A stretch of 64,000 nt of DNA from positions 1,798,001 through 1,862,000 of the forward strand of contig NZ_CP026116.1 of NCBI RefSeq assembly GCF_004101845.1, read 5' to 3'. This DNA comes from Latilactobacillus curvatus JCM 1096 = DSM 20019. GTDB taxonomy: Bacteria; Bacillota; Bacilli; Lactobacillales; Lactobacillaceae. The translations under genes were made by a program, and so were the position numbers. The notes beneath the pieces were generated by a model that had not been told where the DNA came from, did not search any database, and worked only from the letters and a program-made list of their open reading frames with translations. Shown piece after piece: positions 874 to 54,427 of this stretch; within the stretch, counting starts at the first letter, position 1; every line of letters starts with the position of its first letter.

Positions 874-942
874 GTGGAAAACCTCCTCTAAAATTTGGTG
901 GGTTAAATTAAATTACCCGGTTTGAATGGCATTATTTTTTTG

Positions 943-1059
943 AAACGTGCTTTCATCAACAACTTCTTCCGCCTTACCTCACTTGCCAAATCGGCGACTG
1001 CATTGCCAATTCGTCAAGTGCTGTAAGTGCTCAGAAGTAACCCGTTGATGGCGCACTCT
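943..1059 (-). repeat. Structured repeat element, copy M1
   Basis: A full copy read on the minus strand: AGAGTGCG at the 5' end (1059) and AAAGCACGTTT at the 3' end. The outer arm CATCAACGGGTTACTTC pairs with GAAGAAGTTGTTGATG. The inner stem pair is CTTAC/GTAAG. It belongs to the same arm subfamily as the copies at 25370, 38982 and 49452. It lies between the two pepC genes. Confidence 0.9.
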
Positions 1060-1065
1060 GATTTG

Positions 1066-1182
1066 AAACGTGCTCCGTAAGCCATATCCTTCCGGTTAAC
1101 CCTGAACGTCAAACGATTGCTGGCGCAATCCTTCGCCGTTCTGTGTTAATCCTCAGGATAAACTCGGCTTACTACGCACTCT
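1066..1182 (-). repeat. Structured repeat element, copy M2, overlapping the pepC stop codon
   Basis: A minus-strand copy whose 5' end TAGAGTGCG includes the TAG stop of the upstream pepC paralogue. The outer arm AGTAAGCCGAGTTTATCC pairs with GGAAGGATATGGCTTACGG. The internal motif is the G/C version: GAGGATTAAC with GTTAACCGG. Confidence 0.9.
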
Positions 1183-2503
1183 ATTGCAGTGCGTCCCATG
1201 GGTCTAGCTTAATTGGGGTTTTTGTGAGTGCGGCTTGTTCTTCTTTTGTAAGGTACGCTTTTTTGACAATTACCTCGTAAACGTAGTCGTCAAACCAAGC
1301 GTCGCTCATACTGAAGTAACCTTTTGTACCGACTTTGGCACTCCATGTGTTTTCGACTTTCCATTTCGTTGGTTGGTCGTTTACGAGGTCGACACCGGTG
1401 AGGGTCATCGCGTGGGAAACAACGCCTTGTCGGTAGTCAAGTCGTTGGTCTTTTGGCATCGTCAAATCGAAACCAAAGAGTCCAGAATAGTCGTAAAGGT
1501 TGCGATCAAGCCAGCCTTTTTGTCGGTCCATATCCGCGAGCACGTCATTGCCAAACCAAATTGTTTCACCGTTTTGTAAGGATTGGATAGCCAGTGCTTT
1601 TAAACGTTCAGGGGGTAAGTTTAAGAGGCGCATTGGGTGACCTTCGACTACCGTGTTTTGCGATTCTAAACTGTAGAGTTGGTTGTATTGTTTACTTGTT
1701 TGGGGGCTGCTGACAACGGTGATGTAGTCGTCAAAGTTGCGATTGAGATATTTTTGATAGAAACTTTGCGGGGTTAAACCGCGGTCTTCATGGTAATTTT
1801 GGTCGTCATCGCGATAGGTGAAGTCAAACGTTTCGACTGGTTCGCCGAATGCGTAAACACATAGCCGATAGATTTCACTTAAGAAACCAGTCCGCGTTTC
1901 ACTGATGGTTGTTTCGCTAGCGTTGTCAGCAACAAGTTGCCGTAATTGAATCGCATCTTTGCGCAGTTTCAAATTAAGAGTGCTGTTGAATTCAGTGGTT
2001 AAGTCACTGTTATAAGTTTCGGGCATGACCGACTTGGGCACAGCACCGTATTTTTGAATCAGTGCCACTGCGTTGTCCCATTGGCCACCGTCAAAATCGG
2101 GACCAGCGAGGGTGAAGGCGACTTCGCGATCCGTAATCGGCTTGTCGGCAGTTGCTAAAATCTTTTCATAAAAGAGGTTCGCCTTTTCGATGCGATCCCA
2201 GAAAGATAGATAATTTTGGGAGAGTTCGAAATTCTTAACGTGATATTTCTGTTCGAAATCGTGGCGTAATGTATTTAGAGTGGCAAATAACCAGCACCGC
2301 CCACTCTTTTTTTGAAAGCTGACATCACCAGTGGGGAGGTCGATTGAGTAGGTTGGATCAAGGGTGACGGCAGCATCGGGGCGTTGACTAACGGCGTTAA
2401 TGCCATTCGTCATCACAGCATTTTTGAGCGTCGTTGCTTGTGGCACGCCAGCTAAAGCGGTCCGCATCTTGATTAAATTATTATGTGTAATTTCTTGGGT
2501 CAT
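1181..2503 (-). CDS. pepC: Aminopeptidase C-like cysteine peptidase (second paralogue)
   Basis: A complete 440-residue peptidase C1B (bleomycin hydrolase/PepC) protein, the usual length for the family. The catalytic triad is visible: Cys70 in KSGRCWLFATLN, His364 in VVSHAMTLTG and Asn385 in KVENTWSAKVG. These enzymes are cytosolic hexamers that trim casein- or meat-derived peptides. The start is ATG at 2503, behind AGGAGTG. The C-terminus ends DPWDALQ. In PepC the last residues plug the active site and set aminopeptidase against endopeptidase behaviour, so this tail is informative. The stop codon is supplied by, or shared with, the 5' end of a structured repeat. It probably forms a transcription unit with the downstream paralogue. 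Confidence 0.93.
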   Translation of the reverse strand: MTQEITHNNLIKMRTALAGVPQATTLKNAVMTNGINAVSQRPDAAVTLDPTYSIDLPTGDVSFQKKSGRCWLFATLNTLRHDFEQKYHVKNFELSQNYLSFWDRIEKANLFYEKILATADKPITDREVAFTLAGPDFDGGQWDNAVALIQKYGAVPKSVMPETYNSDLTTEFNSTLNLKLRKDAIQLRQLVADNASETTISETRTGFLSEIYRLCVYAFGEPVETFDFTYRDDDQNYHEDRGLTPQSFYQKYLNRNFDDYITVVSSPQTSKQYNQLYSLESQNTVVEGHPMRLLNLPPERLKALAIQSLQNGETIWFGNDVLADMDRQKGWLDRNLYDYSGLFGFDLTMPKDQRLDYRQGVVSHAMTLTGVDLVNDQPTKWKVENTWSAKVGTKGYFSMSDAWFDDYVYEVIVKKAYLTKEEQAALTKTPIKLDPWDALQ

Positions 2504-2671: not shown

Positions 2672-2672
2672 G

Positions 2673-2790
2673 AAACGTGCTTTTTAAAGCTGACGCTTGC
2701 GCTTAGCTACGTATTGCAAACGACCGATTTTGTCGGTCATTTAAAACACTGTGCTAGTGCACAGTGTCAAATCTGCTTTAAACGCACGCT
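2673..2790 (-). repeat. Structured repeat element, copy M3, abutting the rpiA stop
   Basis: A minus-strand copy starting one base after the rpiA TAA and ending just before the terminator. The outer arms TTTAAAGCAG and CAGCTTTAAA are complementary. The inner part contains ACCGACAAAATCGGTCGTTTGC. It shares its arm subfamily with the copy at 49653. Confidence 0.88.
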
Positions 2791-3474
2791 TTATTTTGCT
2801 GTTAAAATCTTCACGCCATCAGGTGCGCCAACCACGACTTGGTCGACGATGTCTAGGAATAGGCCATGTTCAACAACGCCGACTTGTTCACTGAGCCATG
2901 ATGCCAGTAGGTGGGGATGTTGGACTTGGTTGAGGTGTAAATCGATGACGTAGTTTTTAGAATCAGTTAAGACGTGTTGGCCGTCTGCAGTCATCCGGAA
3001 TTCTGGATTTAAGCCTTCTTTAGCCATTTTGTTGAACACTTGTTGGCTGCCAAATGGAATCACTTCAACTGGTAGTGGGAAGCGACCGATTGTATCGACC
3101 ACTTTTTCTTGATCGACAATCCAAATGTTGCGGGTTGAAGTAGTTGCGACTAATTTTTCGAATAAGTGCGCAGCACCGCCGCCTTTAATCCCTTGGAAGT
3201 TGGCATCGACTTCATCGGCACCATCGATGGTTAAATCAATGTGGTCGACATGGTTGAGTGCTTTGACCGGAATCCCAAGTGATTTGGCTTGTTCTTCAGT
3301 ACGAATTGAGGTGCAGACACATGTTAAGTTGAGGTGTTCTGCTTGTACCCGTTTTGCAAGGGCTTCCACCATGTAAACTACTGTTGAACCTGTTCCGAGT
3401 CCTAAAATCATGTTATCTTCGACAAAATCCACTGAGCGTTCAGCTGCCATCTTTTTCATTGCATTCTTATCCAT
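2791..3474 (-). CDS. rpiA: Ribose-5-phosphate isomerase A
   Basis: Interconverts ribose-5-phosphate and ribulose-5-phosphate in the cytosolic pentose phosphate pathway. It is 227 residues, typical for RpiA. Family motifs in order are GLGTGSTV near the N-terminus (phosphate-binding loop), TIDGADEVD (catalytic Asp region), [12 protein letters not shown] and the C-terminal [13 protein letters not shown] chose ATG 3474 because AAGGGGTGT precedes it at a good distance; a TTG lies one codon upstream. It is divergent from dut. A repeat element and a terminator follow. zwf, another pentose phosphate gene, is elsewhere in the window (37.4 kb). Confidence 0.95.
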
Positions 3475-7059: not shown

Positions 7060-7064
7060 TTGGA

Positions 7065-7180
7065 AGAGTGCGTTTGAAACGGTTTGACTTCGAGCATTTG
7101 CCTAATACCGTGAGGGAGCGCCACCGGCGATCGTTTGCGGTATGGAGCAAAGCACAGAAGTCAGTTTCAAAAAGCACGTT
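7065..7180 (+). repeat. Structured repeat element, copy P1
   Basis: A full copy lying after the T-box terminator in the cysS leader. The outer arm TTTGAAACGGTTTGACTTCG pairs with AGAAGTCAGTTTCAAA. The internal motif GAGCATTTGC pairs with GCAAAGCAC. Confidence 0.9.
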
Positions 7181-7187
7181 TAGAAGA

Positions 7188-7304
7188 AGAGTGCGACAGC
7201 AGGTGGTTATATTTTGAGCATTAACTGGATTTGACGAATTGGCGATGCAATCGCCGATTGGGCAAATTTGGTTAAGCGCAGAAATAAGCCTGCAAGAGCA
7301 CGTT
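7188..7304 (+). repeat. Structured repeat element, copy P2
   Basis: A full copy immediately ahead of cysS. The outer arm GACAGCAGGTGG pairs with GCCTGCAAG, and GAGCATTAAC pairs with GTTAAGCGC. It is nearly identical to the copy at 51037. Confidence 0.9.
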
Positions 7305-7321
7305 TAAGAAAGGAAGATTCG

Positions 7322-12242: not shown

Positions 12243-12279
12243 CAAAAGGGCAACGATATTGATCGCTACCCTTTTTTAT
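12243..12279. terminator. Bidirectional terminator between the yccF-like and ABC-F genes
   Basis: AAAAGGGCAACGATATTGATCGCTACCC followed by T on the plus strand and by TTTT on the minus strand. It separates convergent genes. Confidence 0.7.
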
Positions 12280-12280
12280 G

Positions 12281-12390
12281 TGGTGCAGGCATATTTCTGT
12301 GCTTAGCTACACAAGTCAAACGATTGCTTGTAGCAAGCATTCGCCTTGTTAGGCTGATGCTCGCAGCATAACCGGCTTTTGACGCACTCT
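12281..12390 (-). repeat. Structured repeat element, copy M4 (degenerate)
   Basis: A minus-strand copy whose 5' end TAGAGTGCG overlaps the stop of the ABC-F gene. The inner stem AACAAGGCGAATG ... and GCTAAGCAC are recognisable. The outer arms (GTCAAAAGCCGG against ATATGCCTGCACC) pair poorly, unlike in the other copies. Confidence 0.7.
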
Positions 12391-14332
12391 ATTGTGTTAG
12401 TTCTTCTAGTGCCATCGCTTGTTCTTCCCAGTCTGATTCTGTTTGAGCGAGTTCAGCTTGGACTTTTTCTAGGTCTTGTTGTAGTTCTTGAAGCATGAGG
12501 GGTTTAGTAATTACGTCTGCTTGGGTCATTTGTTCTTGGATTGCGTTGGCCTTAGTCTCTAGTGCGGCCATTTTTTCTTCTAAAGCAGTAACTTCGCGTT
12601 CTAGTTTCCGTTGTGCACGTTGGTTTTCCTTACTTGCTTTGTAGGCATCTAGTGCATTGGCACTTGGTTGGATAATTGCACTGTTTTGGCTAGCTGCTTC
12701 TGCGTAAGCTGTTTCTTCAGCTTTCTTGGCGAGGTAGTAATCGTAATCACCGAGGTATCGTTTGCTACCAGTATCTGATAGTTCGATAATGCCAGTGGCG
12801 ACTTGATTGATGAAATACCGGTCATGGGAAATGAAGAGGACGGTGCCATCGAATTCACGGAGGGCTTTTTCCAAGACTTCCTTGCTATCAATGTCCAAAT
12901 GGTTCGTTGGTTCATCCATGATTAAGAAATTGTCATGGTTCATCGCGAGTTTCGTCAAGAGTAAGCGGGCTTTTTCACCACCACTGAGTTGTGACACAAC
13001 CTTTAAAACATCGTCACCGGTGAATAAGAAACTACCAAGTAGTGTGCGAATTTCCTTTTCAGGTGTTGTATGGTGTTCATCCCATAATTCGTTGAGGACG
13101 GTTTTGTTAGTGTGTAAATTGCGTTGCTCTTGATCGTAGTAGCCCATTGAAACGTTACTACCGACTTTTTCATGGCCTTTGATGAACGGAATTTGGTGCA
13201 AGATACTTTTGAGAAGGGTCGATTTACCAATTCCGTTAGGTCCGATGATGGCTAAGCGTTCGTGGCGGTTCACTTCAAAATTGATTGGTTGTACCATGAT
13301 TTTATCGGGGGAATAGCCGACAGCGGCATCGCTTACTTGCAATACTTCGTTACCGCTTGGATGTTCGCTTTCGAAATGAAAATGAATTTTACCGGCTTCG
13401 TTTTGCGGCCGGTCTAATTTATCCATCTTTTCGAGTTGACGGCGGCGACTTTGGGCTTGTTTCGTGGTACTTGCGCGCACTAAGTTTTTATCAACAAAGG
13501 TCTGAAGTTTATCGATTTCAGCTTGTTGTTTTTCATAAGCCTTCCATTCGAGTGAGAGGTTAGCTTCTTTTAAACTTAAGAAATGGCTGTAATTACCGGT
13601 ATAATGGGTCAATGTGTGGCGACTCATGTCGTAGACTTCTTTAGTGATTTTATCTAAGAAGTACCGGTCATGCGAGACGGTGAGCAAGGCACCGGGATAA
13701 GTTTGTAAATAATTTTCCAACCATGTTAGTGTTTCGATATCTAAATGGTTCGTTGGTTCGTCCAAAATAAGGACGTCTTTTTTCTCAAGCAATAACTTAG
13801 CAAGTGCGAGTCGCGAGCGTTCGCCTCCCGATAGTGTACTGATTGGCTTTTCAAAGGTGTCTTCTGGAAATTGGAAACCATGTAAGACGCCACGGATTTC
13901 GGCTTCATAGCCGTAACCATTAGCTTCAGAGAAATCGTGTTGGACTTGGTCATATCGTTTTAGTAAGGCTGCATATTCTTCGCTAGCATGGTCAATGGTT
14001 GTGTCCGCAATTGCGGTCTCGAGTTCATGCATTTGGGCTTCCATTTGGCGGAGATCATCGAAAATGGTTAACATCTCCGCATAGATTGTCCGGGTTGAGT
14101 CTAAGCCACTATCTTGCGCTAAGTAACCGACTTGAGCATTTTTGCTAAGAATGATTTGGCCTTCATCAGGCGTTGTGATGCCGGCAATCATTTTTAATAA
14201 GGTTGATTTACCAGCCCCGTTTGGACCAACGAGGGCAACACGGGCGCGGTCTTGTACTTCGAGTTGTGCGTTTTTGAAAAGGTAATCGCCGCCAAAACTG
14301 CGTGCGACTTGTTGAACTTGTAATAATATCAC
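12389..14332 (-). CDS. ABC-F family ATPase (YdiF/YfmR-like translation factor)
   Basis: A 647-residue soluble protein with two ABC cassettes and no membrane domain. Cassette 1 has Walker A GPNGAGKS, signature LSGGERSRLALAK and Walker B LILDEPTNHLD. Cassette 2 has GPNGIGKS, LSGGEKARLLL and LIMDEPTNHLD. A charged linker lies between them and a coiled-coil tail (about the last 90 residues, E/Q/K/A rich) follows, typical of the ABC-F group that acts on ribosomes. I set the start at GTG 14332, with CGAAAGGAT at proper spacing; upstream in-frame ATGs (14407, 14380) have no ribosome site. Nothing marks it as a resistance determinant. Confidence 0.9.
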   Translation of the reverse strand: MILLQVQQVARSFGGDYLFKNAQLEVQDRARVALVGPNGAGKSTLLKMIAGITTPDEGQIILSKNAQVGYLAQDSGLDSTRTIYAEMLTIFDDLRQMEAQMHELETAIADTTIDHASEEYAALLKRYDQVQHDFSEANGYGYEAEIRGVLHGFQFPEDTFEKPISTLSGGERSRLALAKLLLEKKDVLILDEPTNHLDIETLTWLENYLQTYPGALLTVSHDRYFLDKITKEVYDMSRHTLTHYTGNYSHFLSLKEANLSLEWKAYEKQQAEIDKLQTFVDKNLVRASTTKQAQSRRRQLEKMDKLDRPQNEAGKIHFHFESEHPSGNEVLQVSDAAVGYSPDKIMVQPINFEVNRHERLAIIGPNGIGKSTLLKSILHQIPFIKGHEKVGSNVSMGYYDQEQRNLHTNKTVLNELWDEHHTTPEKEIRTLLGSFLFTGDDVLKVVSQLSGGEKARLLLTKLAMNHDNFLIMDEPTNHLDIDSKEVLEKALREFDGTVLFISHDRYFINQVATGIIELSDTGSKRYLGDYDYYLAKKAEETAYAEAASQNSAIIQPSANALDAYKASKENQRAQRKLEREVTALEEKMAALETKANAIQEQMTQADVITKPLMLQELQQDLEKVQAELAQTESDWEEQAMALEELTQ

Positions 14333-16348: not shown

Positions 16349-17977
<1,629 letters not shown>

Positions 17978-17978
17978 A

Positions 17979-18095
17979 GAAGTGCGTTTGAAACGGGTTG
18001 GTTCTGAGCATTAACCTAAAAACGAGCGTTATGGCGGTTTTTGCCATAACGCTCGTTTTGTAGTTAAGCGGAAGTCGTTATAACCAAAAAGCACG
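17979..18095 (+). repeat. Structured repeat element, copy P3 (long inner hairpin type)
   Basis: It lies between the groEL stop and its terminator. Ends AAGTGCG and AAAGCACG are standard and GAGCATTAAC/GTTAAGCGG is kept. The inner part is replaced by a long uninterrupted hairpin, AACGAGCGTTATGGC against GCCATAACGCTCGTT. Confidence 0.85.
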
Positions 18096-18104
18096 ATTAA
18101 ATCC

Positions 18105-18142
18105 AAAGTTCCAAAACTGGCAAAAGTTTTGGAACTTTTTTA
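18105..18142 (+). terminator. Terminator of groESL
   Basis: AAAGTTCCAAAAC, loop, GTTTTGGAAC and T run, located after the repeat element. Confidence 0.9.
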
Positions 18143-18231
18143 TTTTTCAAAAAAAATGCGCATATATAAATTGTGCGCAACCCTATTAATTAATTTTGAT
18201 TGCGGTATAATAATAGTTGGAGGTGTTGACA

Positions 18232-19258
18232 ATGATTTTTCGAAACCGGCGGATACTGATAACCTGTTTAATGTTAGGTGGCTTCTTTTTAGCGCGACCA
18301 CAAACGGTCCAAGCAACGCCTGAAGAAACGCAAACTGCCATTAAGACAGCACAAGATCATCTATCCGAATTGAATAATAATATTAGTAATTTAACGTTAA
18401 AAACAACGCAATTGAACGAACAAATGACTGCAAAACAGGCGGATATTAAAGAAAAACAAGACGAGTTCAGCAAAACATCTGCTGATTATCAAAAGCAAGT
18501 GGCGATTATTGAAGGTAACCTGCGGCAATTACAAACACGAGATAGCAGTTTTAATCTTGATATGATCGATAGTTTATTGTCGAGCCAAAGTTTGAGCGAT
18601 TTATTCCAAAAAGGTTCAATCATCAATCGACTGTTAGACGCTAAGGCGGATAATGCCGCTGAAACGGCCTCATTAGCTGAAAAAAAGCTGAACAAAAGAC
18701 TGAATTAGAAGCGCAACAGGCCAAGCTGGTATCATTATCACAGGAAAATGATGCTGCAATTAAGGACTTAGATCAACAAAAACAACAAGCTAACGACCAA
18801 TTAACGCAACTACAAACGAAGTTCAAGAAAGAATTAGAGGCGCAAGCGGCTGCTCAAAAAGCGGCGAGTGATGCAGGTGCCGCATTAATTACTGGTAACA
18901 AGGATTTAATGAATAATAAGATTATCCAAGAAGCGGTTAAATATTTAGGCGACCCTATGTTTGGGGTGGCACCACACCCGAAGGATTTGACTGTTCTGGC
19001 TTAGTGCAATACGTTTACGCTAAAAATGGGATTAAATTACCCCGTGTTTCACAAGATCAAAGTAAGTTAGGCAAAGATGTACCGCTCAATGAATTACAAC
19101 CAAACGACCTATTATTCTGGGGAGGGGTTGGAACAGCCCACCATGTCGCAATCTACATTGGGGATGGCTACTTTATCCAAGCACCACAACCTGGCGATAA
19201 AGTTCGAATTACTAAAATTTCAGATTACAAACCAGATTTTGCCCGTCGTTTATCATAA
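18232..19258 (+). pseudogene. Secreted NlpC/P60 peptidoglycan hydrolase, broken by two frameshifts
   Basis: It has a signal peptide at the N-terminus (MIFRNRRILITCLML..., cleavage near VQATP), then a long Q/K/A-rich coiled coil. The C-terminal NlpC/P60 domain has catalytic FDCSGLVQYVY, and a His region AHHVAIYIGDG. The three pieces are in three frames. The first break is at an A7 run (18680-18686), where one more A restores the frame; the second is near 18951-18958 (GACCCTATG), where one more base would give the expected Tyr-Val-Trp-Gly-Gly. All catalytic residues survive, so it may be a recent pseudogene or a pair of sequencing errors. GGAGG precedes ATG 18232. Such proteins act as endopeptidases on the cell wall. 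Confidence 0.85.
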
Positions 19259-19263
19259 AAAAT

Positions 19264-19316
19264 AAGAACTGACCAAGGAATCGAGGCGTTTCGATTACCT
19301 TGGTCAGTTCTTTTTT
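19264..19316 (+). terminator. Terminator of the NlpC/P60 gene
   Basis: AAGAACTGACCAAGG ... CCTTGGTCAGTTCTT and T run. Confidence 0.9.
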
Positions 19317-19319
19317 AAA

Positions 19320-19349
19320 TTGTGGTAGTAATTCATGCGTAACTATAGT
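19320..19349 (+). promoter_or_regulatory. Possible promoter of kimA
   Basis: TTGTGG (19320-19325), 18-base spacer, TATAGT (19344-19349). About 140 bases of leader follow before the start codon; I see no recognisable riboswitch in it. Confidence 0.4.
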
Positions 19350-19490
19350 AGAATACGATTTGTTTGAATAAACGGCAATTATTTTTTTAAGTTATAGAGA
19401 AATTCAAAAGTCACTGTGTGGATTGCGACGAATGATATTCACATGAGGGCTTTTTATGTTAGAAATATTATTTAAAGGGGTCATATTGCT

Positions 19491-21320
19491 ATGCAACAGT
19501 TAAAACGGATTTTTATCGGGAAACCGTTAAAATCTTCCGATGAGGGTAATCAAAAATTAGGACGCTTTAAAGCGTTAGCGATGCTATCTTCTGATGCATT
19601 GTCATCAGTGGCCTACGGGACAGAAGAAATCGTCATCGTATTGACGACCCTTTCGGCCGCGGCAATTTGGTATTCAATTCCAATCGCAGCCTTTGTGCTC
19701 GTATTGCTATTGTCATTAACTTTGTCATATCGCCAAGTGATCCACGCCTATCCAGGTGGTGGTGGCGCCTACGTTGTTTCCAGTGAAAATTTGGGGAAAA
19801 ATGCTGGTTTAGTGGCAGGTGGTTCACTGCTTGTGGATTACATGTTAACCGTTGCGGTTAGTATTTCCGCGGGTGCGGAAGCGATCACCTCGGCCATTCC
19901 GGCATTGTATGGGCATCAAGTAGGGATTTCCTTCATTATCGTTTTGATCTTGATGGGAATGAATCTACGTGGGATGCGTGAATCAGCATCATTTTTAATG
20001 GTGCCCGTTTACTTATTCGTCTTGATGATGACTTTAATGATCATCGTTGGGTGTTATAAGATCTTCACAGGTGCGATTCCGTTCCACGCAACATCAACCG
20101 TTGGGGCTGTTGTACCAGGTGTTTCGATGGCGTTGATTTTTAGAGCCTTCTCATCAGGTTCATCATCATTAACTGGGGTTGAAGCCATCAGTAATGCGGT
20201 ACCATTTTTCAAGAAGCCACGTGCAACAAACGCGGCTGAAACATTAGCAATCATGGCAGCCATCTTAGGTTTCTTCTTTGCTGGGATTACATTTTTAAAC
20301 TACTGGTACGGCATTGTACCAGCAGAAAAAGTAACTGTTCTATCACAAGTGGCCCAACACACCTTTGGGAAAGGCTTTTTATTCTATATTGTGCAATTTG
20401 CAACGGCCTTTATTTTAGCCGTCGCTGCGAATACTGGATTCTCCGCTTTTCCAGTGTTAGCGTATAATTTAGCCAAAGACAAATATATGCCACACATGTA
20501 CATGGATCGTGGCGATCGTTTAGGTTATTCAAACGGGATTATTACATTGGCGATTGGTTCAATGGCATTGATTTTCATCTTTAACGGGGATACATCACGC
20601 TTGATTCCACTTTATGCGGTTGGTGTGTTCATTCCATTTACGCTTTCTCAATCTGGGATGTTGCGCAAGTGGTGGGTCGAACGACCAAAGAATTGGTTTG
20701 GTAAATCAATTGCCAATTTTGTTGGCGCTTTGATTTCGTTTGCTATCTTAGTCATTCTCTTCGTTTATCGCTTACCTGATATCTGGCCATTCTTCATCAT
20801 CATGCCTGTTATGATTTGGATTTTCTATAAGATTCATGATCATTACAAGAAAGTGGCGCTTCAACTACGCGTGAGTGCTAAAGAAGCCGTCTTGCATGAT
20901 TATGACGGTTCAACTGTGATTGTCTTGGTCAGCAACGTGACCCAAGTAACCCGTGGTGCGCTAGATTACGCACAATCAATCGGGGATTATGTGATTGCGA
21001 TGCATGTCTCAACGGATGAAAATCCAGCCAAGGAACGTGAAATTCAAGCTGAATTCAAGGAAGATTTTCCGAATGTCCGGTTCGTCGATGTCCATTCATC
21101 ATACCGGTCAATTCAAAAACCAATTGTTCGCTTTGTTGACATTGTTAGCAAGAATGCGCAAAAACGGAACTTTACAACCACGGTCTTGGTCCCACAATTC
21201 GTACCAAGAAAACCATGGCAAAACATTTTGCATAACCAATCAAGTCTAAGACTAAGAACGGCATTTGCAAACCGCGAAAACATTATTATTTCAACATATA
21301 GTTATCACTTAAAACACTAG
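19491..21320 (+). CDS. kimA: KimA-type potassium importer (APC superfamily)
   Basis: A 609-residue protein with about 12 membrane segments and a cytosolic C-terminal domain of about 150 residues (from about 455). The N-terminal signature IGKPLKSSDEGNQKLGRFKA then LSSDALSSVAYGTEE and AYPGGGGAYVVS closely follows B. subtilis KimA (YdaO) from memory. KimA imports K+ with protons and is inhibited by c-di-AMP binding its C-terminal domain. In B. subtilis a c-di-AMP riboswitch precedes it; none is evident here. Older annotations would call it an amino-acid permease. It is followed by four tandem structured repeats and a terminator. Confidence 0.85.
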   Translation: MQQLKRIFIGKPLKSSDEGNQKLGRFKALAMLSSDALSSVAYGTEEIVIVLTTLSAAAIWYSIPIAAFVLVLLLSLTLSYRQVIHAYPGGGGAYVVSSENLGKNAGLVAGGSLLVDYMLTVAVSISAGAEAITSAIPALYGHQVGISFIIVLILMGMNLRGMRESASFLMVPVYLFVLMMTLMIIVGCYKIFTGAIPFHATSTVGAVVPGVSMALIFRAFSSGSSSLTGVEAISNAVPFFKKPRATNAAETLAIMAAILGFFFAGITFLNYWYGIVPAEKVTVLSQVAQHTFGKGFLFYIVQFATAFILAVAANTGFSAFPVLAYNLAKDKYMPHMYMDRGDRLGYSNGIITLAIGSMALIFIFNGDTSRLIPLYAVGVFIPFTLSQSGMLRKWWVERPKNWFGKSIANFVGALISFAILVILFVYRLPDIWPFFIIMPVMIWIFYKIHDHYKKVALQLRVSAKEAVLHDYDGSTVIVLVSNVTQVTRGALDYAQSIGDYVIAMHVSTDENPAKEREIQAEFKEDFPNVRFVDVHSSYRSIQKPIVRFVDIVSKNAQKRNFTTTVLVPQFVPRKPWQNILHNQSSLRLRTAFANRENIIISTYSYHLKH

Positions 21321-21437
21321 AAGTGCGACTCGATCTGAGTAGGCTTTGAGGATTAACAGTAAAATGGGCATTGTGGCGGTTCTTGCCATGATGCTCATTT
21401 TGCAGTTAACCGGAAAAGACTGATCGAGGAGCGCGTT
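21321..21437 (+). repeat. Structured repeat element, copy P4
   Basis: First of four tandem copies, beginning directly after the kimA stop. The outer arm CTCGATCTGAGTAGGCTTT pairs with AAAAGACTGATCGAG. GAGGATTAAC pairs with GTTAACCGG. The long inner hairpin is AAAATGGGCATTGTGGC against GCCATGATGCTCATTTT. Confidence 0.9.
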
Positions 21438-21445
21438 AAAGAAAG

Positions 21446-21553
21446 AAGTGCGTTTAGCAACCGAGCATTAATACAAAATTGGCAGTTATCCCGAGTTGTG
21501 GGATGACTGCCAATTTTAGATTAAGCGGAAGTTGGTGCAACTAAAAGCACGTT
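21446..21553 (+). repeat. Structured repeat element, copy P5
   Basis: Second tandem copy, shorter. Inner hairpin AAAATTGGCAGTTATCCC against GGGATGACTGCCAATTTT, with outer arm TTTAGCAACCGAG... against GGTGCAACTAAA. Confidence 0.88.
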
Positions 21554-21559
21554 AGAAGA

Positions 21560-21675
21560 GAAGTGTGTTTGAAACGGTTTGACTTTGAGCATTAGCCTAA
21601 ATCTGTGAATGAGCGACGGAGTTGATCGTTTGCGGATTGTAGCTAAGCGCAAGAGTCAGTTTCAAAAAGCACGTT
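21560..21675 (+). repeat. Structured repeat element, copy P6
   Basis: Third tandem copy. Outer arm TTTGAAACGGTTTGACTTTG against AAGAGTCAGTTTCAAA, GAGCATTAGC against GCTAAGCGC, and the standard inner hairpin GAGCGACGGAGTTGATCG. Confidence 0.92.
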
Positions 21676-21683
21676 AAAAGAAG

Positions 21684-21798
21684 AAGTGTGTTCAAACCGA
21701 TTATGTTCTGAGGATTAGCAAAATTAGACGAATAAGCGACGAAGTCGATTGGTTGGCTAATTAGGCTAAACGCAGGAACATGGTTTGAAAAGCACATT
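21684..21798 (+). repeat. Structured repeat element, copy P7
   Basis: Fourth tandem copy. Outer arm TTCAAACCGATTATGTTCTG against CAGGAACATGGTTTGAA. It ends AAGCACATT, just before the kimA terminator. Confidence 0.9.
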
Positions 21799-21801
21799 AT
21801 C

Positions 21802-21839
21802 AGCCCCGCTCACCTTTTCGGTGCGCGGGGCTTTTTTTG
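21802..21839 (+). terminator. Terminator after the kimA repeat array
   Basis: AGCCCCGCTCACC ... GGTGCGCGGGGCT with a T run. The four repeats are therefore within the kimA transcript. Confidence 0.9.
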
Positions 21840-21935
21840 TTTTTCTACGGGTACAGCAAAACTTTTTATTCTGGGCAAAAATTGCTACAATAGAAGCTAT
21901 ATCAAAGTCTGAGAAAGAACATTAAGGGGCGCAAC

Positions 21936-22784: not shown

Positions 22785-25370
22785 ATGCCACAAAAAACGA
22801 AAGAAACGCCAATGATGGCGCAATATCAAAAGGTCAAGGATCAGTATCCGGACGCTTTTTTATTTTATCGCCTCGGTGATTTTTACGAACTCTTTAATGA
22901 TGATGCTGTCAAAGCTTCACAATTATTGGAACTCACACTAACAGCACGCAATAAAAATGCGGATGATCCAATTCCAATGTGTGGGGTACCACACCATGCA
23001 GCCCAAAATTACATCGATATTCTAGTCGATCAAGGTTACAAGGTTGCTATTTGTGAACAAATGGAAGATCCTAAAACCGCTAAAGGGATGGTCAAGCGGG
23101 AAGTCATTCAACTGGTCACACCAGGAACGATGATGGATGAAAAAGCCGGCCATGCCAAACAAAATAATTACTTAACAGCAGTGGTGGCAGATGGCGATCA
23201 GTTTGGCTTTGCTTATACCGATTTATCAACTGGTGAGATGAAAGTCAGCCAGATTGCGAGTTTGGATTTATTGCTCAACGAAATGTTGAGTTTACAAACC
23301 AAAGAAGTTGTCATTAACCACGGTGTTGCCAGTGAGGTTGTGCACGCGTTTGTTCAACAACAAATTCTCGTGTCGTATCAAGAAGATGGCGATGCAACGG
23401 CCGAAGTCAGTTTCGTTTCACAAAACATCTCCCAGCCCCTTGAACTGGCCGTGATTAAACAATTGGTCTTGTATTTGGCAACGACGCAAAAGCGCCATTT
23501 AGGGCATTTACAACGGGCCCAAGAGTACGAGCCATCCCAATATTTAAAATTAGACCATTCTGCGAAGATGAACCTTGAATTAACGGCTTCTTTACGCACT
23601 GGTCATAAGAGCGGGACATTATTGTGGTTATTGGATGAAACCAAGACGGCAATGGGTGGCCGGTTATTAAAACAATGGTTAGAACGGCCATTATTGGATT
23701 TAAAGGCGATTCAAAACCGGCAACGCCAAGTCGCTAGTTTCATGAACCATTATTTTGAACGGACAAACTTGCAAGACGCCCTCACAAAAGTGTATGACCT
23801 AGAACGGCTAGCAGGTCGGGTCGCATTTGGCAGTGTTAATGGCCGCGATTTAATTCAGTTGAAGACTTCCTTGGAACAAATTCCAACGATTAAAACGATT
23901 TTAACGGGCATTAATGACGATCAGACCTTTGACCGTGCGTTAGACCAACTCGATCCGGTTGATGATGTACGCGAGCTCATTGAAACGGCCATCAATCCCG
24001 ATGCGCCAATTTCAGTGACTGACGGTGGGATTATTCAATCGGGTTACAACGAAACATTAGATGATTATCGCGATGCGATGTCTAACGGGAAACAATGGCT
24101 AGCACAACTTGAAGCTAAAGAACGCGAAATTACCGGGATTCATAATTTAAAAATTGGCTTTAATCGCGTGTTTGGTTACTATATCGAAGTGACACGTGCG
24201 AATTTAGACGCGCTACCTGAAGGGCGTTATGAACGGAAACAAACCTTAACCAACGCCGAACGGTTCATTACACCGGAATTAAAGGCGAAAGAACAATTGA
24301 TTTTAGAAGCCGAAGAACGCTCAACCGCGCTTGAATATGAGTTATTCACGCAAGTTCGCGAAACCGTTAAGTTGGAGATTGAACGGCTTCAAACCCTCGC
24401 TAAAAGTGTGGCGGCCCTTGATGTCTTACAAAGTTTTGCCGTAGTCAGTGAAAACTACCACTACGTTCAGCCGACATTAATGACTGATAGTCGCGAAATT
24501 GATTTAGTGGATGGGCGTCATCCAGTGGTTGAAAAAGTGCTCGGTCGCCAAAAATACATTCCCAACGCGGTTCAAATGGGCACCGATACGGATATGCTCT
24601 TAATTACTGGTCCGAATATGTCTGGGAAGAGTACGTACATGCGGCAACTGGCTTTGACGGTCATCATGGCGCAGATGGGATGTTTTGTACCGGCTAAATC
24701 TGCGAACTTACCGATTTTTGATCAGATCTTTACGCGCATTGGTGCGGCCGATGATTTAATTTCCGGTCAAAGTACCTTCATGGTCGAAATGATGGAAGCC
24801 AATCGCGCGATTATGAACGCGACACAAAATAGCTTGATTCTCTTTGACGAAATCGGACGCGGAACAGCCACCTATGATGGAATGGCCTTGGCCCAAGCGA
24901 TTATTGAATACATTCACGACAACGTGCATGCCAAGACACTCTTTTCAACGCATTATCACGAATTGACCAGCTTAGCGGATTCACTAACCGCATTGAAAAA
25001 CGTCCACGTCGGGGCAGTTGAAGAAAATGGCGAGTTAGTCTTTTTACACAAGATGCTGGCTGGCCCAGCTGATAAGTCATACGGGATTCACGTGGCTAAA
25101 TTAGCGGGGATGCCGACACCGTTGTTGAACCGCGCAGATATCATCTTGGATCAATTAGAAGATAAACCAAAGGCAGCTGTCGTGCCGGCTGCTGAACCGG
25201 TTGAAGAAGTGGATGAACAAATTTCACTATTCGAACCAGAAGTGGCACCACAAGCGGATCCAAAAGCAGCTAAAGTCCTAGCGGCGGTTAAACAATTCGA
25301 CTTAATGAGCGCCACACCACTAGACGCGCTAAACATGCTATACAAATGGCAAAAGGAATTAAACAAATAA
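22785..25370 (+). CDS. mutS: DNA mismatch repair protein MutS
   Basis: Recognises mismatches and small loops in DNA as a sliding-clamp ATPase. It is 861 residues, full length. The N-terminal [15 protein letters not shown] has the mismatch-wedge Phe-x-Glu. The C-terminal ATPase has Walker [14 protein letters not shown], Walker [12 protein letters not shown] and the STHYHEL switch. An acidic linker and the C-terminal tail (about 800-861) follow. GAGAGGG lies ahead of ATG 22785. Two structured repeats sit between it and mutL with no terminator, so the two are probably still cotranscribed. Confidence 0.97.
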
Positions 25371-25485
25371 GAGTGCGTCATCAACGGGTAACTTCTGAGC
25401 ATTTACAGCACTTGACGAATTGGCGATGTAATCGCCGATTTGGCAAGTGGGGTAAAGCGGAAGAAGTTGTTGATGAAAGCACGTT
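25370..25485 (+). repeat. Structured repeat element, copy P8, overlapping the mutS stop
   Basis: Starts at the last base of the mutS TAA. Outer arm CATCAACGGGTAACTTC against GAAGAAGTTGTTGATG, GAGCATTTAC against GTAAAGCGG, and inner GGCGATGTAATCGCC. Confidence 0.93.
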
Positions 25486-25491
25486 TCGGAT

Positions 25492-25609
25492 AAGAGTGTA
25501 TTCAAGCTTGTCCAACTTTTGAGCATTAGCACAGGGAAGCGAATTAGCGACGCAGTCGATGATTTGATTCACAGCGCTAAGCGCAGAAAGTTAGCTTGAA
25601 AAGCACGTT
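25492..25609 (+). repeat. Structured repeat element, copy P9
   Basis: Follows P8. Outer arm TTCAAGCTTGTCCAACTTT against GAAAGTTAGCTTGAA, GAGCATTAGC against GCTAAGCGC. It lies 42 bases ahead of mutL. Confidence 0.92.
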
Positions 25610-25650
25610 TTAGCACTAAATACCCACACGTCAGAAAAAGGAGAACGCTA

Positions 25651-38974: not shown

Positions 38975-38981
38975 TTGAAAG

Positions 38982-39096
38982 AAGTACGTCATCAACGGGT
39001 AACTTCTGAGCATTTACAGCACTTGACGAATTGGCGACGGAATCGCCGATTTGGCAAGTGAGGTAAAGCGGAAGAAGTTGTTGATAAAAGCACGTT
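38982..39096 (+). repeat. Structured repeat element, copy P10
   Basis: Almost identical to P8 (25370), with an A in AGTACG at the 5' end. Outer arms CATCAACGGGTAACTTC/GAAGAAGTTGTTGAT. It lies after the zwf terminator and ahead of dinB. Confidence 0.92.
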
Positions 39097-39101
39097 AAAG
39101 G

Positions 39102-39221
39102 AAGAAGTGCGTTAATTCGCGGTTAGCCTTTGAGCATTTGCCTAATCAGACGGATAAGCGCCAAGGGCGATTATTTGGCTGATGTAGCAAAGCACAGAAG
39201 GTTACGAATTAAAAGCACGTT
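39102..39221 (+). repeat. Structured repeat element, copy P11
   Basis: Outer arm TTAATTCGCGGTTAGCCTT against AAGGTTACGAATTAA, GAGCATTTGC against GCAAAGCAC, and inner GCGCCAAGGGCG. Confidence 0.92.
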
Positions 39222-39228
39222 AAAGAAA

Positions 39229-39271
39229 GAAGTGCGTCAAAAGCGGAACAATGTGCCTGAAAAAGCATGTT
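39229..39271 (+). repeat. Structured repeat element, copy P12 (truncated remnant)
   Basis: About 43 bases with the correct 5' end (AGTGCGTCAAAAGC) and 3' end (TGCCTGAAAAAGCATGTT); the whole interior is deleted. Confidence 0.65.
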
Positions 39272-39293
39272 GAAAAAATTAAGGAGGGGTAAC

Positions 39294-49016: not shown

Positions 49017-49328
49017 ATGACTGAAGATAACAAGAACATCCACCAAGATGAAGAACAACAAATTACACTAATCGACGACCAAGGTAACGAGGAATTATAC
49101 CAAGTGCTCTTTACATTTGATTCAGAAGATTACGGTAAATCATACGTGCTATTGTACCCAACAAGCGCTGAAGAAGATGAAGAAGTTGATATCCAAGCTT
49201 TCTCATTCACATCAGACGATGCAGGCGATGCCAGCAAAGGTGACCTATTCCCAATCGAAGACGACGAAGAATGGGAAATGGTTGAAGAAGTACTAAACAC
49301 ATTTTTGGCAGACGACAACATGAAATAA
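49017..49328 (+). CDS. DUF1292 protein (YrzB family)
   Basis: A 103-residue, very acidic protein whose core is ITLIDDQGNEELYQVLFTFD and YVLLYP, typical of DUF1292. No function is established. It belongs to the conserved ireB-ruvX-yrzB operon. TTAAGGAG precedes ATG 49017. Its TAA overlaps the 5' end of a structured repeat. Confidence 0.9.
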   Translation: MTEDNKNIHQDEEQQITLIDDQGNEELYQVLFTFDSEDYGKSYVLLYPTSAEEDEEVDIQAFSFTSDDAGDASKGDLFPIEDDEEWEMVEEVLNTFLADDNMK

Positions 49329-49441
49329 GTGCGTTCAAACCGGTTATACTTTGAGGACTAGCATAGTCCCGTGAATGAGCGACGAAGTCGATCGTTTGCG
49401 GGACGTAGCTAGCCGCAGAAGTATGGTTTGAAAAGTACGTT
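49327..49441 (+). repeat. Structured repeat element, copy P13
   Basis: Overlaps the DUF1292 stop. Outer arm TTCAAACCGGTTATACTTTG against AGAAGTATGGTTTGAA, GAGGACTAGC against GCTAGCCGC, and inner GCGACGAAGTCGATCG. Confidence 0.93.
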
Positions 49442-49451
49442 AAAGAAAAGA

Positions 49452-49565
49452 AGAGCGTCATCAACGGGGAACTTCTGAGCATTTGCCTAACTTAGCGAAT
49501 TGGCGATGCAATCGCCGATTTGATAAGTGTAGCAAAGCACAGGAAGTTGTTGATGAAAGCACGTT
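49452..49565 (+). repeat. Structured repeat element, copy P14
   Basis: Same arm subfamily as P8 and P10: CATCAACGGGGAACTTC against GGAAGTTGTTGATG. GAGCATTTGC pairs with GCAAAGCAC. Confidence 0.92.
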
Positions 49566-49580
49566 ATCACCATCTATTTC

Positions 49581-49632: not shown

Positions 49633-49652
49633 TGTGGAGAAGGTGTGGGTTG

Positions 49653-49767
49653 AAATGTGCTTTTTAAAGCTGACTCTTGTGCTTAGCTTCGTATCGCAAA
49701 CGACCGACTTTGTCGGTCATTCACAACACTGTGCTAATGCTCAGAGTCAACCCGCTTTAAACGCACT
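49653..49767 (-). repeat. Structured repeat element, copy M5
   Basis: Minus strand. Outer arm TTTAAAGCGGGTTGACTCTG against AAGAGTCAGCTTTAAA. Its 3' end AAAGCACATTTCA lies just before the shared terminator. Confidence 0.9.
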
Positions 49768-49769
49768 TT

Positions 49770-49887
49770 AAACGTGCTCTTACAGGCATATTTCTGCGCT
49801 TAACTAAATTTGCCAAATCAGCGATTACATCGCCAATTCGTCAAATCCAGTTAATGCTCAAAATATCACCGCCTGTAGTCGCACTCT
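49770..49887 (-). repeat. Structured repeat element, copy M6, overlapping the rnhC stop
   Basis: Minus strand, 5' end TAGAGTGCG on the rnhC stop codon. Outer arm CTACAGGCGG against GCCTGTAAG. Compared with P2/P16 (CAGCAGGCGG/GCCTGCAAG), one base pair has changed on both sides (A-T for G-C). Confidence 0.93.
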
Positions 49888-50809
49888 ATAACAATTTCTT
49901 CGCTTTTTCCGTGTTAATAAAATGCAATTTAGCGAATTCGCCTAGGTAATCGATGCCACCTTGTGCGAGTAAATCTGCGGCGATTTGGTTAACTGCTTGA
50001 TGATTGCCGAGCGGAATTTGGCGGCCCGCTTTTTTAGACAGTTCAAGCATTGATAGGTTGGCTTGGTGGCGCGCAATGATTGAAGCGGCAGCAACGGCGA
50101 GGTGAAATTGTTCCGCCTTGGTTGAGAAATAAACGTTCTCGCGTAAAACAACCGGTTCATTCTTCAAATAGTTGTAGTAAATGCCGCGTGGTTCGAATTG
50201 ATCAATGAGGATGCCAGCGGGTTTTTCGGGTTGGATTTTTTGGAGGACTTTGAGGAGTGCGAAATTATGGCTGATGGCCTTCATTTTTTCGATGTTCATT
50301 GTGGCGTGTACTTCATTGTATTTCGGTGGCATGATGTTGACGATGTGATAGGGGAGTTTAGCCATCATCTTGATTGCCATCTGATCGATTTGTGCATCGG
50401 TTAGCGTTTTGGAATCCGCGACGCCTAGGCTATTGACGAACGCCAGATTTTCTTGGCTGACATAGACGGCGGCGATGGTCAGCGGACCGAAGTAGCTTCC
50501 GTTACCAACTTCATCTGAGCCTAAAACGGACCATTTGGCAAAATCAGCTGGTAAAACATCGCCTTTGGCGGCTTTAGGCTTAGTACGGCTAGCAGATTTT
50601 GCTTTGCTAGGGGTAGCGGTGCCCCACTTAGCAGCTTCTCGTTCGGCACTAGCGCCTTGGAAAAGTACTTTGCCAGATTTATAGCCGGTAATGCTTAGTC
50701 CATTGGCTTGGTGCGCAAAAACGGCCCCCGGCGGTAGTTGACGGTTGGTCGGATAATTTTTTTGAATAGTAGTTAATTGTGAGGGTGTCACTTTAATGAC
50801 TGCTTGCAT
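49886..50809 (-). CDS. rnhC: Ribonuclease HIII
   Basis: Cleaves RNA in RNA-DNA hybrids. It is 307 residues. An N-terminal TBP-like substrate-binding domain (about 1-90) is followed by an Ala/Lys/Ser-rich linker (about 75-105) and the catalytic domain beginning VLGSDEVGNGSYFGPL (D-E pair), with the DSKTLTDAQI and AVAAASIIARHQ segments after it. The genome context is the conserved rnhC/cvpA/mutS2 cluster, here with rnhC divergent from cvpA-mutS2. Its 3' UTR holds two structured repeats and the shared terminator. Confidence 0.96.
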   Translation of the reverse strand: MQAVIKVTPSQLTTIQKNYPTNRQLPPGAVFAHQANGLSITGYKSGKVLFQGASAEREAAKWGTATPSKAKSASRTKPKAAKGDVLPADFAKWSVLGSDEVGNGSYFGPLTIAAVYVSQENLAFVNSLGVADSKTLTDAQIDQMAIKMMAKLPYHIVNIMPPKYNEVHATMNIEKMKAISHNFALLKVLQKIQPEKPAGILIDQFEPRGIYYNYLKNEPVVLRENVYFSTKAEQFHLAVAAASIIARHQANLSMLELSKKAGRQIPLGNHQAVNQIAADLLAQGGIDYLGEFAKLHFINTEKAKKLL

Positions 50810-50856
50810 ACGATTGGCTCCTTAATGAGTGGCAAATGAAGAGATTCGGAGTAAAA

Positions 50857-50886
50857 TTGCCACTTTCCCTTATTTCATGATAAAAT
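50857..50886 (+). promoter_or_regulatory. Promoter of the cvpA-mutS2 unit
   Basis: -35 TTGCCA (50857-50862), 18-base spacer, -10 TAAAAT (50881-50886) preceded by TGA (extended -10). It lies upstream of the three repeats, which would then be in the cvpA 5' leader. Confidence 0.55.
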
Positions 50887-50913
50887 AGTTCAGTTGAACT
50901 AGCAAATAAAATT

Positions 50914-51030
50914 AGAGTGCGACTGCAGATGGTCATACTCTGAGGATTAGTAGCATACCGTGAATGACCGGCAAGGCCGATCGTTTGCGGTATGAAACTA
51001 ACCGGAAGAGTATATCTGCAGGAGTACGTT
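50914..51030 (+). repeat. Structured repeat element, copy P15
   Basis: Outer arm CTGCAGATGGTCATACTC against GAGTATATCTGCAG. GAGGATTAGT pairs with ACTAACCGG, and inner GACCGGCAAGGCCGATCG. Confidence 0.92.
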
Positions 51031-51036
51031 AAAAAA

Positions 51037-51154
51037 AGAGTGCGACAGCAGGCGGTTATATTTTGAGTATTAACTGGATTTGACGAATTGGCGATGCAAT
51101 CGCCGATTTGGCAAATTTGGTTAAGCGCAGAAATATGCCTGCAAGAGCACGTTT
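51037..51154 (+). repeat. Structured repeat element, copy P16
   Basis: Nearly identical to P2 (7188). Outer arms CAGCAGGCGG/GCCTGCAAG, internal GAGTATTAAC with GTTAAGCGC. Confidence 0.93.
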
Positions 51155-51162
51155 CAAAAATC

Positions 51163-51280
51163 AGAGTGCGCAATAAGCTGGGTATCTTCTGAGGATTAGC
51201 ATAGACTCGTGAATAAGCGACGAAGTCGATTGTTTGCGAGGCGTAGCTAACCGGAAGAAGATGGCTTATGGAGCACGTTT
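51163..51280 (+). repeat. Structured repeat element, copy P17
   Basis: Outer arm AATAAGCTGGGTATCTTC against GAAGATGGCTTATGG. GAGGATTAGC pairs with GCTAACCGG, and inner AGCGACGAAGTCGATTG. Confidence 0.92.
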
Positions 51281-51346
51281 CAGAATACTTTATCCAATCA
51301 ATCATACACACATCCACGCCACAAAACGCGTATCTAAGGGGAACTC

Positions 51347-54310: not shown

Positions 54311-54425
54311 AGTGCGGAAGCAGGCGGTTATACGCCGAGGATTAGCATAGGCAGACGAATGACCAACTTGTTGGTCGTTTGGCTGGTGTAGCTAACCGGA
54401 GGAGTTTGCCTGCTGGAGCACGTTT
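54309..54425 (+). repeat. Structured repeat element, copy P18, overlapping the mutS2 stop
   Basis: TAGAGTGCG overlaps the stop codon. Outer arm GAAGCAGGCGG against TGCCTGCTGG, GAGGATTAGC against GCTAACCGG, and inner GACCAACTTGTTGGTCG. A terminator follows within 5 bases. Confidence 0.93.
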
Positions 54426-54427
54426 AC

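Follow-up and report, generated by a model that had tools for sequence, protein, structure and literature searches.

A 64,000-nucleotide stretch of the Latilactobacillus curvatus JCM 1096 = DSM 20019 genome (contig NZ_CP026116.1, positions 1,798,001 to 1,862,000; hereafter the window, in whose numbering features are given) carries repeats of about 120 nt that belong to a large, high-copy and apparently undescribed family of the Lactobacillaceae. Three of these repeats, P3, P4 and P5, follow groEL and a permease gene and are probably three members of one family of post-stop hairpins in mRNA 3' untranslated regions (3'-UTRs), comparable to the repetitive extragenic palindromic (REP) and BOX elements of other bacteria. 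This is the reading that we favour over several alternatives weighed below. Its main supports are the copy number, the position of the copies at stop codons and the conservation of pairing on the sense strand.

The initial annotation had described P3, P4 and P5 as copies that retain the ends and the internal motif around a centre made of a long unbroken hairpin. This description is accurate: the unbroken centres measure 15-18 bp, and all six arms are found letter for letter. The arms of P3 (starting at 18021 and 18043) form 15 of 15 Watson-Crick pairs, those of P4 (21361 and 21385) 14 Watson-Crick and three G-U pairs over 17 positions, and those of P5 (21475 and 21500) 17 Watson-Crick pairs and one G-U pair over 18 positions. 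When whole copies were folded against shuffled sequences, z was -5.1 for P3, -8.3 for P4 and -7.8 for P5, with none of 200 shuffles folding as well. The centres of P3 and P4 had been called related, and both indeed fall in one class (B, defined below). That of P5 had been called unrelated to them; it does belong to another class (C), but it is not isolated, its type occurring in 13 of 150 aligned copies. Unbroken centres are not peculiar to these three copies and are common across the family at large. Little of the outer stem of P3 is paired, since its 3' arm looks like that of a different type of copy: half of the H2 pairs and 43% of the H3 pairs are formed. In the alignment, the 5' outer arm of P5 is about 10 nt short. 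The copies and their centres are listed here with scores, in bits, from R1, a covariance model (CM) built from 21 window copies.

17977-18099, plus strand: P3, directly 3' of the groEL stop codon (TAA, 17975-17977); class B centre; mosaic by the mosaic test, outer stem poorly paired; 81.0 bits.
18016-18062, plus strand: class B centre of P3, arms 18021-18035 and 18043-18057.
21318-21439, plus strand: P4, first copy of a four-copy array, beginning at the stop codon of an APC-family permease gene (named from strain CACC879); class B centre; 84.1 bits.
21358-21404, plus strand: class B centre of P4, arms 21361-21377 and 21385-21401.
21443-21555, plus strand: P5, second copy of the array; class C centre; about 10 nt gone from the 5' outer arm; 79.7 bits.
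21473-21519, plus strand: class C centre of P5, arms 21475-21492 and 21500-21517.
21558-21677, plus strand: third copy of the array, class A centre; 118.5 bits.
21681-21800, plus strand: fourth copy of the array, class A centre; 113.1 bits.

R1 detected 22 strong copies in the window, and the genome-wide search added one more (49769-49889, minus strand). Altogether at least 150 copies were found in the L. curvatus genome (150 of 150 candidates scored), and at least 158 at E <= 1e-5 in the examined stretches, a count that, like the class counts below, omits five copies overlapping a neighbour by 3 nt (1013440, 1319573, 1590348, 1760348 and 1847769). The 148 copies on the main contig make up 90 arrays or single copies, that is, a high copy number outside coding regions. 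Under strict filters, R1 matched 23 of 80 genomes of relatives, the L. curvatus source genome counted, and none of 31 genomes from other families of the order. Within the Lactobacillaceae, likewise under strict filters, matches occurred in 72 of 151 sampled genomes and 19 of 40 genera, with copy numbers per genome that are lower bounds. A search of named genomes with the exact pattern matched at least 120 stretches; among the 80 matches listed, 79 are titled Lactobacillaceae, including Levilactobacillus, Lactiplantibacillus, Lapidilactobacillus, Paucilactobacillus, Lacticaseibacillus and other genera, and four of these 79 are contigs of metagenome-assembled genomes (MAGs) titled uncultured Lactobacillus. 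The other listed match, a 4.4-kb MAG contig labelled Chryseobacterium gleum (L218), probably represents lactobacillus contamination.

In the window, no match of an Rfam family to the element attained the gathering score. Eleven loci from other species yielded one T-box (L144) and nothing at the gathering score on the element itself; weak matches obtained at low threshold in 17900-21900 lay far under the gathering scores and were discarded. The array at 21318-21800 had no match in the phage collection, and one viral contig (L260, IMG/VR; viral_contigs) contains the exact pattern. Our literature search found no account of this element; in the excerpt of PMC2267715, L. johnsonii is the sole Lactobacillus matched by name, and the family reported there is genic. 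On a second, 18-kb contig of the L. curvatus genome, two copies (G000:C2:11055-11293) score the same as the pair C1:1590348-1590586, which suggests a shared or duplicated stretch.

The copies are strongly associated with stop codons. With genes taken as longest open reading frames (ORFs), the ORF upstream is on the same strand for 78 of the 90 main-contig arrays or single copies. Among 76 arrays or single copies with a downstream neighbour, 59 start no more than 6 nt from the stop codon, compared with 15.2 expected under uniform placement and a maximum of 26 in 20,000 simulation runs. The commonest offset to the stop is -4 (33 cases), at which the stop is TAG in 30 of 33 cases versus 39 of 166 background genes; the first letters of the element therefore help to make the stop. 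At 54307, for example, the stop is TAG where the element is present and TAA in four relatives that have no element. For the named stretches, three of which come from Latilactobacillus fuchuensis, the 5' end could be parsed in 56 of 88 matches. Here 19 of 49 copies with an upstream ORF on the same strand begin within 12 nt of the stop, later array copies being counted along with first ones, against 2 of 63 in a control using the other end and the other strand. Some of the named-stretch copies distant from a stop may be later members of arrays.

Pairing within the element is maintained through compensatory change. Across 146 distinct L. curvatus copies, 95.3% of paired cells form standard pairs, compared with 69.0% when the 3' letters were shuffled and 32-40% when the partners were slid; two-sided changes occur at 37 of 40 pairs and comprise 1559 cells. 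G-U pairs exceed A-C mismatches at paired positions by 520 to 99 (248 to 90 after dropping four columns with at least 30% G-U), and by column G-U is the more frequent in 28 and A-C in seven. The ratio is 67:9 in 30 copies from other genera and 76:12 in a structure-free alignment. A G-U pair is an A-C mismatch on the complementary strand, so the constrained strand is probably the mRNA-sense one, and the mRNA strand probably folds. Orientation and strand asymmetry together suggest that the copies are transcribed.

Sequence conservation is concentrated in the ends, in a bulge (CGG-TA) and in an internal loop whose facing strands read UGAG-A and CG-A. In other genera the most constant letters are likewise those of the ends (AGAGTG-G and A-CACGTTT), the bulge (CG--TA) and the loop (TGAG-A-TA opposite TA--CG-A), while the centre has almost no constant letters. 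The stems, including the centre, are constrained mainly to pair. A kink-turn interpretation of the UGAG/CG-A loop was dropped, as its strands misfit the kink-turn consensus.

Three classes of centre occur inside one set of ends. In an alignment of 150 copies, which excludes the eight lowest-scoring of the 158, we assigned 120 to class A, 17 to class B and 13 to class C. Class A mostly has an interrupted stem and classes B and C mostly an uninterrupted one, although the breaks are graded and not absolute: an unbroken helix of 15 bp occurs in 14 of 120 A, 14 of 17 B and 12 of 13 C copies. In class B centres an A-tract and a variable middle are followed, ahead of the loop, mostly by TTATGGC; class C centres carry ACAAAATT and a variable middle, followed mostly by AATCC ahead of the loop. 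A GG-TT type loop was noted in 12 of the 30 class B and C centres, P5 not among them, versus one of 120 in class A. Copies resembling classes B and C are also present, by eye, in other species of the genus. The idea that unbroken centres are the rule outside the genus fails on counting, since 18 of 30 copies from other genera reach an unbroken 15 bp and 12 do not.

The groEL site illustrates how the copies recombine. Downstream of groEL, three copies lie side by side in the relative G005, the first of class B with GACTCGAG arms, the second of class B with TTTGAAACGG arms and the third of class C. The left side of P3 agrees with the second of these at 32 of 33 informative sites and its right side with the third at 8 of 10, a mosaic pattern matched by one of 20,000 permutations. 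P3 is best read as a deletion fusion between a class B copy and the class C copy that followed it. By eye, the same site holds another mosaic in G001 and a class C-like centre with B-like flanks in G002; no element was seen there in G004.

Taken together, most copies lie in sense orientation at or just past a stop codon and probably fold, within the 3'-UTR of an mRNA, into one long hairpin. Such a hairpin would form behind the terminating ribosome and could tune the mRNA, by analogy with REP elements most likely through shielding from 3'-to-5' decay or through slowed translation termination. A putative factor would recognise the conserved loop and ends. Tandem copies are common, and recombination between neighbours yields mosaics such as P3. 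Several points weigh against this interpretation. CM-fitted alignments are biased towards the structure, and a strand-biased mutation spectrum could raise G-U over A-C. The outer arms of 18 of the 146 copies reach a degree of pairing no higher than that of the strongest quarter of random arm pairs; the outer stem therefore need not be perfect. Moreover, 12 of the 90 arrays or single copies lack sense orientation relative to the ORF upstream, and 17 of the 76 begin more than 6 nt from the stop. Class was assigned by a rule, after which four copies were moved to another class and three doubtful class B copies were accepted by eye, and the G005 copies are related to the parents of P3 but are not those parents.

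REP elements exert effects at stop codons and at 3' ends. Like the REP elements and bacterial interspersed mosaic elements (BIMEs) of enterobacteria and pseudomonads, described as clustered extragenic palindromes with more than 100 copies per genome (PMC2817692), the present repeats are numerous, extragenic, palindromic and clustered. They differ from these in their length of about 120 nt, in their direct rather than alternating tandem arrangement (58 of 59 neighbour pairs share orientation) and in the lack of hits to the REP-associated Y1 transposase (PF01797) in six genomes of the genus. BOX elements of Streptococcus pneumoniae are likewise high-copy intergenic repeats, of the same order of bacteria, with a predicted RNA fold and with conserved ends (boxA and boxC) around a variable central module (boxB) (PMC3049150). 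Conserved ends with a variable centre are a trait of our element too, its three classes lying inside one set of ends. However, boxB varies in presence and number, whereas here centres of similar length replace one another; BOX is overrepresented between convergent and slightly between divergent genes, and the excerpt of PMC3049150 reports no docking at stop codons. According to the same source, some BOX copies are transcribed as 3' extensions of operons, and their 3' stem-loops have been suggested to impede 3'-to-5' exonucleases (PMC3049150). The SPRITE repeats of S. pneumoniae are also structured and enriched near gene 3' ends, but they have a terminator-like 18-bp duplex with a U-rich tract (PMC3049150), while P3-P5 are not flagged as terminators.

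The main rival to a post-stop hairpin with a role in the mRNA is a selfish mobile DNA element, similar to miniature inverted-repeat transposable elements (MITEs) or foldback elements and without host function, whose hairpin and ends serve its own movement and which survives past stop codons as the least harmful place. We consider it rather unlikely as the full account, although a selfish element docking at stop codons is compatible with post-stop hairpins and both can be true. High copy number and the patchy occurrence across the family (72 of 151 genomes) agree with it, as do short end-bearing remnants at some sites in relatives and the clean presence or absence between species at 38979 and 54307, two sites that are filled in L. 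curvatus and G002 and empty in G004, G001, G005 and G003. Docking within 6 nt is, however, far tighter than uniform placement would give. The comparison with strain CACC879 is also at odds with active movement, showing two units lost at 38991-39225 and thus one loss and no insertions among 26 comparable arrays or single copies (by our own count; 6 of 18 stretches had no counterpart). As for candidate mobilisers, the Y1 transposase PF01797 (present in 16 of 48 genomes searched) and the reverse transcriptase PF00078 were each found in none of the six genomes of the genus, and no search was made for other transposases, integrases or recombinases.

The element had further been proposed to be modular with an exchangeable centre, with independent assortment of inner and outer modules as the check. 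The proposal is partly right. For the 146 distinct copies, assortment is neither free nor fully linked: exchange of centres does occur, but it is rare and class mostly goes with the outer arms. In a Mantel test, the identity of the outer parts correlates with that of the inner parts at r = 0.30-0.31, compared with 0.56 between the two outer arms, and none of 500 permutations reached either value. Centre class holds 0.557 of a possible 0.649 nats on outer family (permuted mean 0.25, 0 of 1000 permutations reaching it), and the classes are therefore largely lineages. Only seven four-combination sets of outer and inner families were seen, versus about 128 expected under free assortment.

These figures bear on the reading that no exchange takes place and that the three centres mark old lineages diverged as wholes. 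The strong tie between class and outer family favours it, as do class B and C copies in other species of the genus that, judged by eye, carry outer arms of the same kinds. Against it stand the outer family of TTTGAAACGG type, whose 18 copies have 15 class A and three class B centres, the seven four-combination sets themselves, the recombinant nature of P3, and the pairs with centres at least 85% alike, 74 of 157 of which have outer arms less than 60% alike. Conversely, among 90 pairs with both outer arms at least 85% alike, 18 have centres less than 60% alike and four differ in class, all four including one class B copy (L064:1501-1623). By eye, the class A copy L065:1625-1746 and the class B copy L082:1625-1748 differ in their centres and agree over much of the sequence around them, namely outer arm, motif and inner stem. 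Exchange of centres is real but rare; its complete absence is unlikely, being partly contradicted by these cases, yet divergence without exchange is true of most class B and C copies.

The arrays suggest another way in which copies might spread. Among neighbours within 30 nt, the single exception to common orientation is 92542 (+) and 92676 (-). Of 58 neighbour pairs, 51 were scored for the letter after GCACGTT (T or A), which is the same in all 51 (60% expected), and 87.5% of 56 neighbour pairs have their 5' end type in common (64% expected); neighbouring bodies are about as unlike as random copies (median 0.573 versus 0.557). Between different sites, the letter agrees in 62% of 29 pairs with bodies at least 90% alike, 74% of 115 pairs at 80-90% and 56-66% below. 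As the end letter is uniform in arrays and only weakly tied to body similarity, the ends appear to belong mainly to the site and the bodies to a mobile pool. Linkers also resemble one another more inside an array (median 0.80, 16 comparisons) than across arrays (0.63).

The attC sites of integrons are imperfect hairpins, about 60-140 nt long, that have conserved ends, extrahelical bases and a variable centre and are located directly after genes in the orientation of the gene. The element shares with them the imperfect hairpin, the conserved ends, the extrahelical bases, the sense placement after genes and the variable centre. Elements could be cassettes that dock at the stop codon and whose hairpin bodies are inserted, lost or replaced by a site-specific process on a single strand in its folded state, an idea that we regard as improbable. 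Unlike in integron cassette arrays, no genes lie between tandem copies, and gene order around the window is largely kept between species. As regards the terminal inverted repeats and target-site duplications of MITEs, the element has short paired ends (GTGC/GCAC), and inspection by eye of empty sites and linkers revealed no repeat of constant length flanking the copies.

Covariation could in principle come from quasi-palindrome correction, in which template switching during replication copies one arm onto the other, and not from selection. Long unbroken centres and the very many two-sided changes are what such correction would leave. It would also erase the bulge and the internal loop, which persist across genera, and the breaks in the interrupted centres of other genera, and it is not expected to produce an excess of G-U over A-C, with or without the G-U-rich columns. 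We therefore regard correction as a decidedly improbable source of the pattern.

Least probable of all, and very much so, is that B and C centres are ordinary intrinsic terminators captured by the element, as their A-tract, stem and T-tract of about four or five letters and their post-stop placement might suggest, because the T-tract sits within the stem, P4 and P5 have more copies downstream, and a scan for a GC-containing stem followed by at least five T in eight flags 18105-18138 and no P3-P5 centre, a weak negative given that it misses an obvious bulged terminator 3' of the P4 array (seen by eye as a GC-rich hairpin at about 21802-21839 that ends in a T tail).

The remaining features of the window are as follows, with R1 scores.

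942-1184, minus strand: two-copy array; 109.9 and 98.1 bits.
2672-2792, minus strand: single copy; 98.3 bits.
7063-7306, plus strand: two-copy array; 118.9 and 111.0 bits.
12278-12392, minus strand: single copy with shortened 3' arm; 61.5 bits.
18105-18138, plus strand: separate intrinsic-terminator-like hairpin 3' of P3, from the terminator scan.
25368-25611, plus strand: two-copy array between mutS and mutL (names from CACC879), beginning at the mutS stop codon; 122.4 and 105.4 bits.
38979-39273, plus strand: two copies and a 47-nt centre-less remnant (39227-39273); 116.7 and 109.7 bits, remnant 17.4 bits (E 0.18).
49324-49567, plus strand: two-copy array beginning over a stop codon; 124.5 and 114.7 bits.
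49652-49889, minus strand: two-copy array of a convergent gene, copies overlapping by 3 nt; 118.1 and 116.2 bits.
50912-51281, plus strand: three-copy array; 111.0, 117.4 and 114.0 bits.
54307-54426, plus strand: single copy at which the gene stop is TAG (site comparison); 93.3 bits.

The remnant at 39227-39273 keeps both ends, and similar short remnants lie at several sites in G002 and G004. A minus-strand ORF of 174 aa (50793-51317) overlaps the array at 50912-51281 and is unlikely to be a gene. Downstream of groEL, the NlpC/P60-type gene at 18217-19258 appears broken, and CACC879 annotates two pieces there, a hypothetical protein and a C40 family peptidase. The four-copy array beginning with P4 and P5 has a 99.6% match in L. 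curvatus CACC879. The 592-kb sequence CP117684.1 (L261) of that strain is filed as plasmid p1_CACC879; it looks like a piece of the chromosome, because it carries groEL, mutS, mutL, ruvAB and other housekeeping genes.

If the favoured reading is true, these repeats would constitute a large layer of 3'-UTR structure, so far uncatalogued, in organisms that industry uses, with more than 150 mostly post-stop hairpins in one meat-fermenting food bacterium and about half of the sampled Lactobacillaceae genomes positive. Docking at stop codons predicts effects on termination or mRNA decay. The groEL site offers a worked case of a structured repeat that recombines and, in doing so, may lose or restore its pairing.

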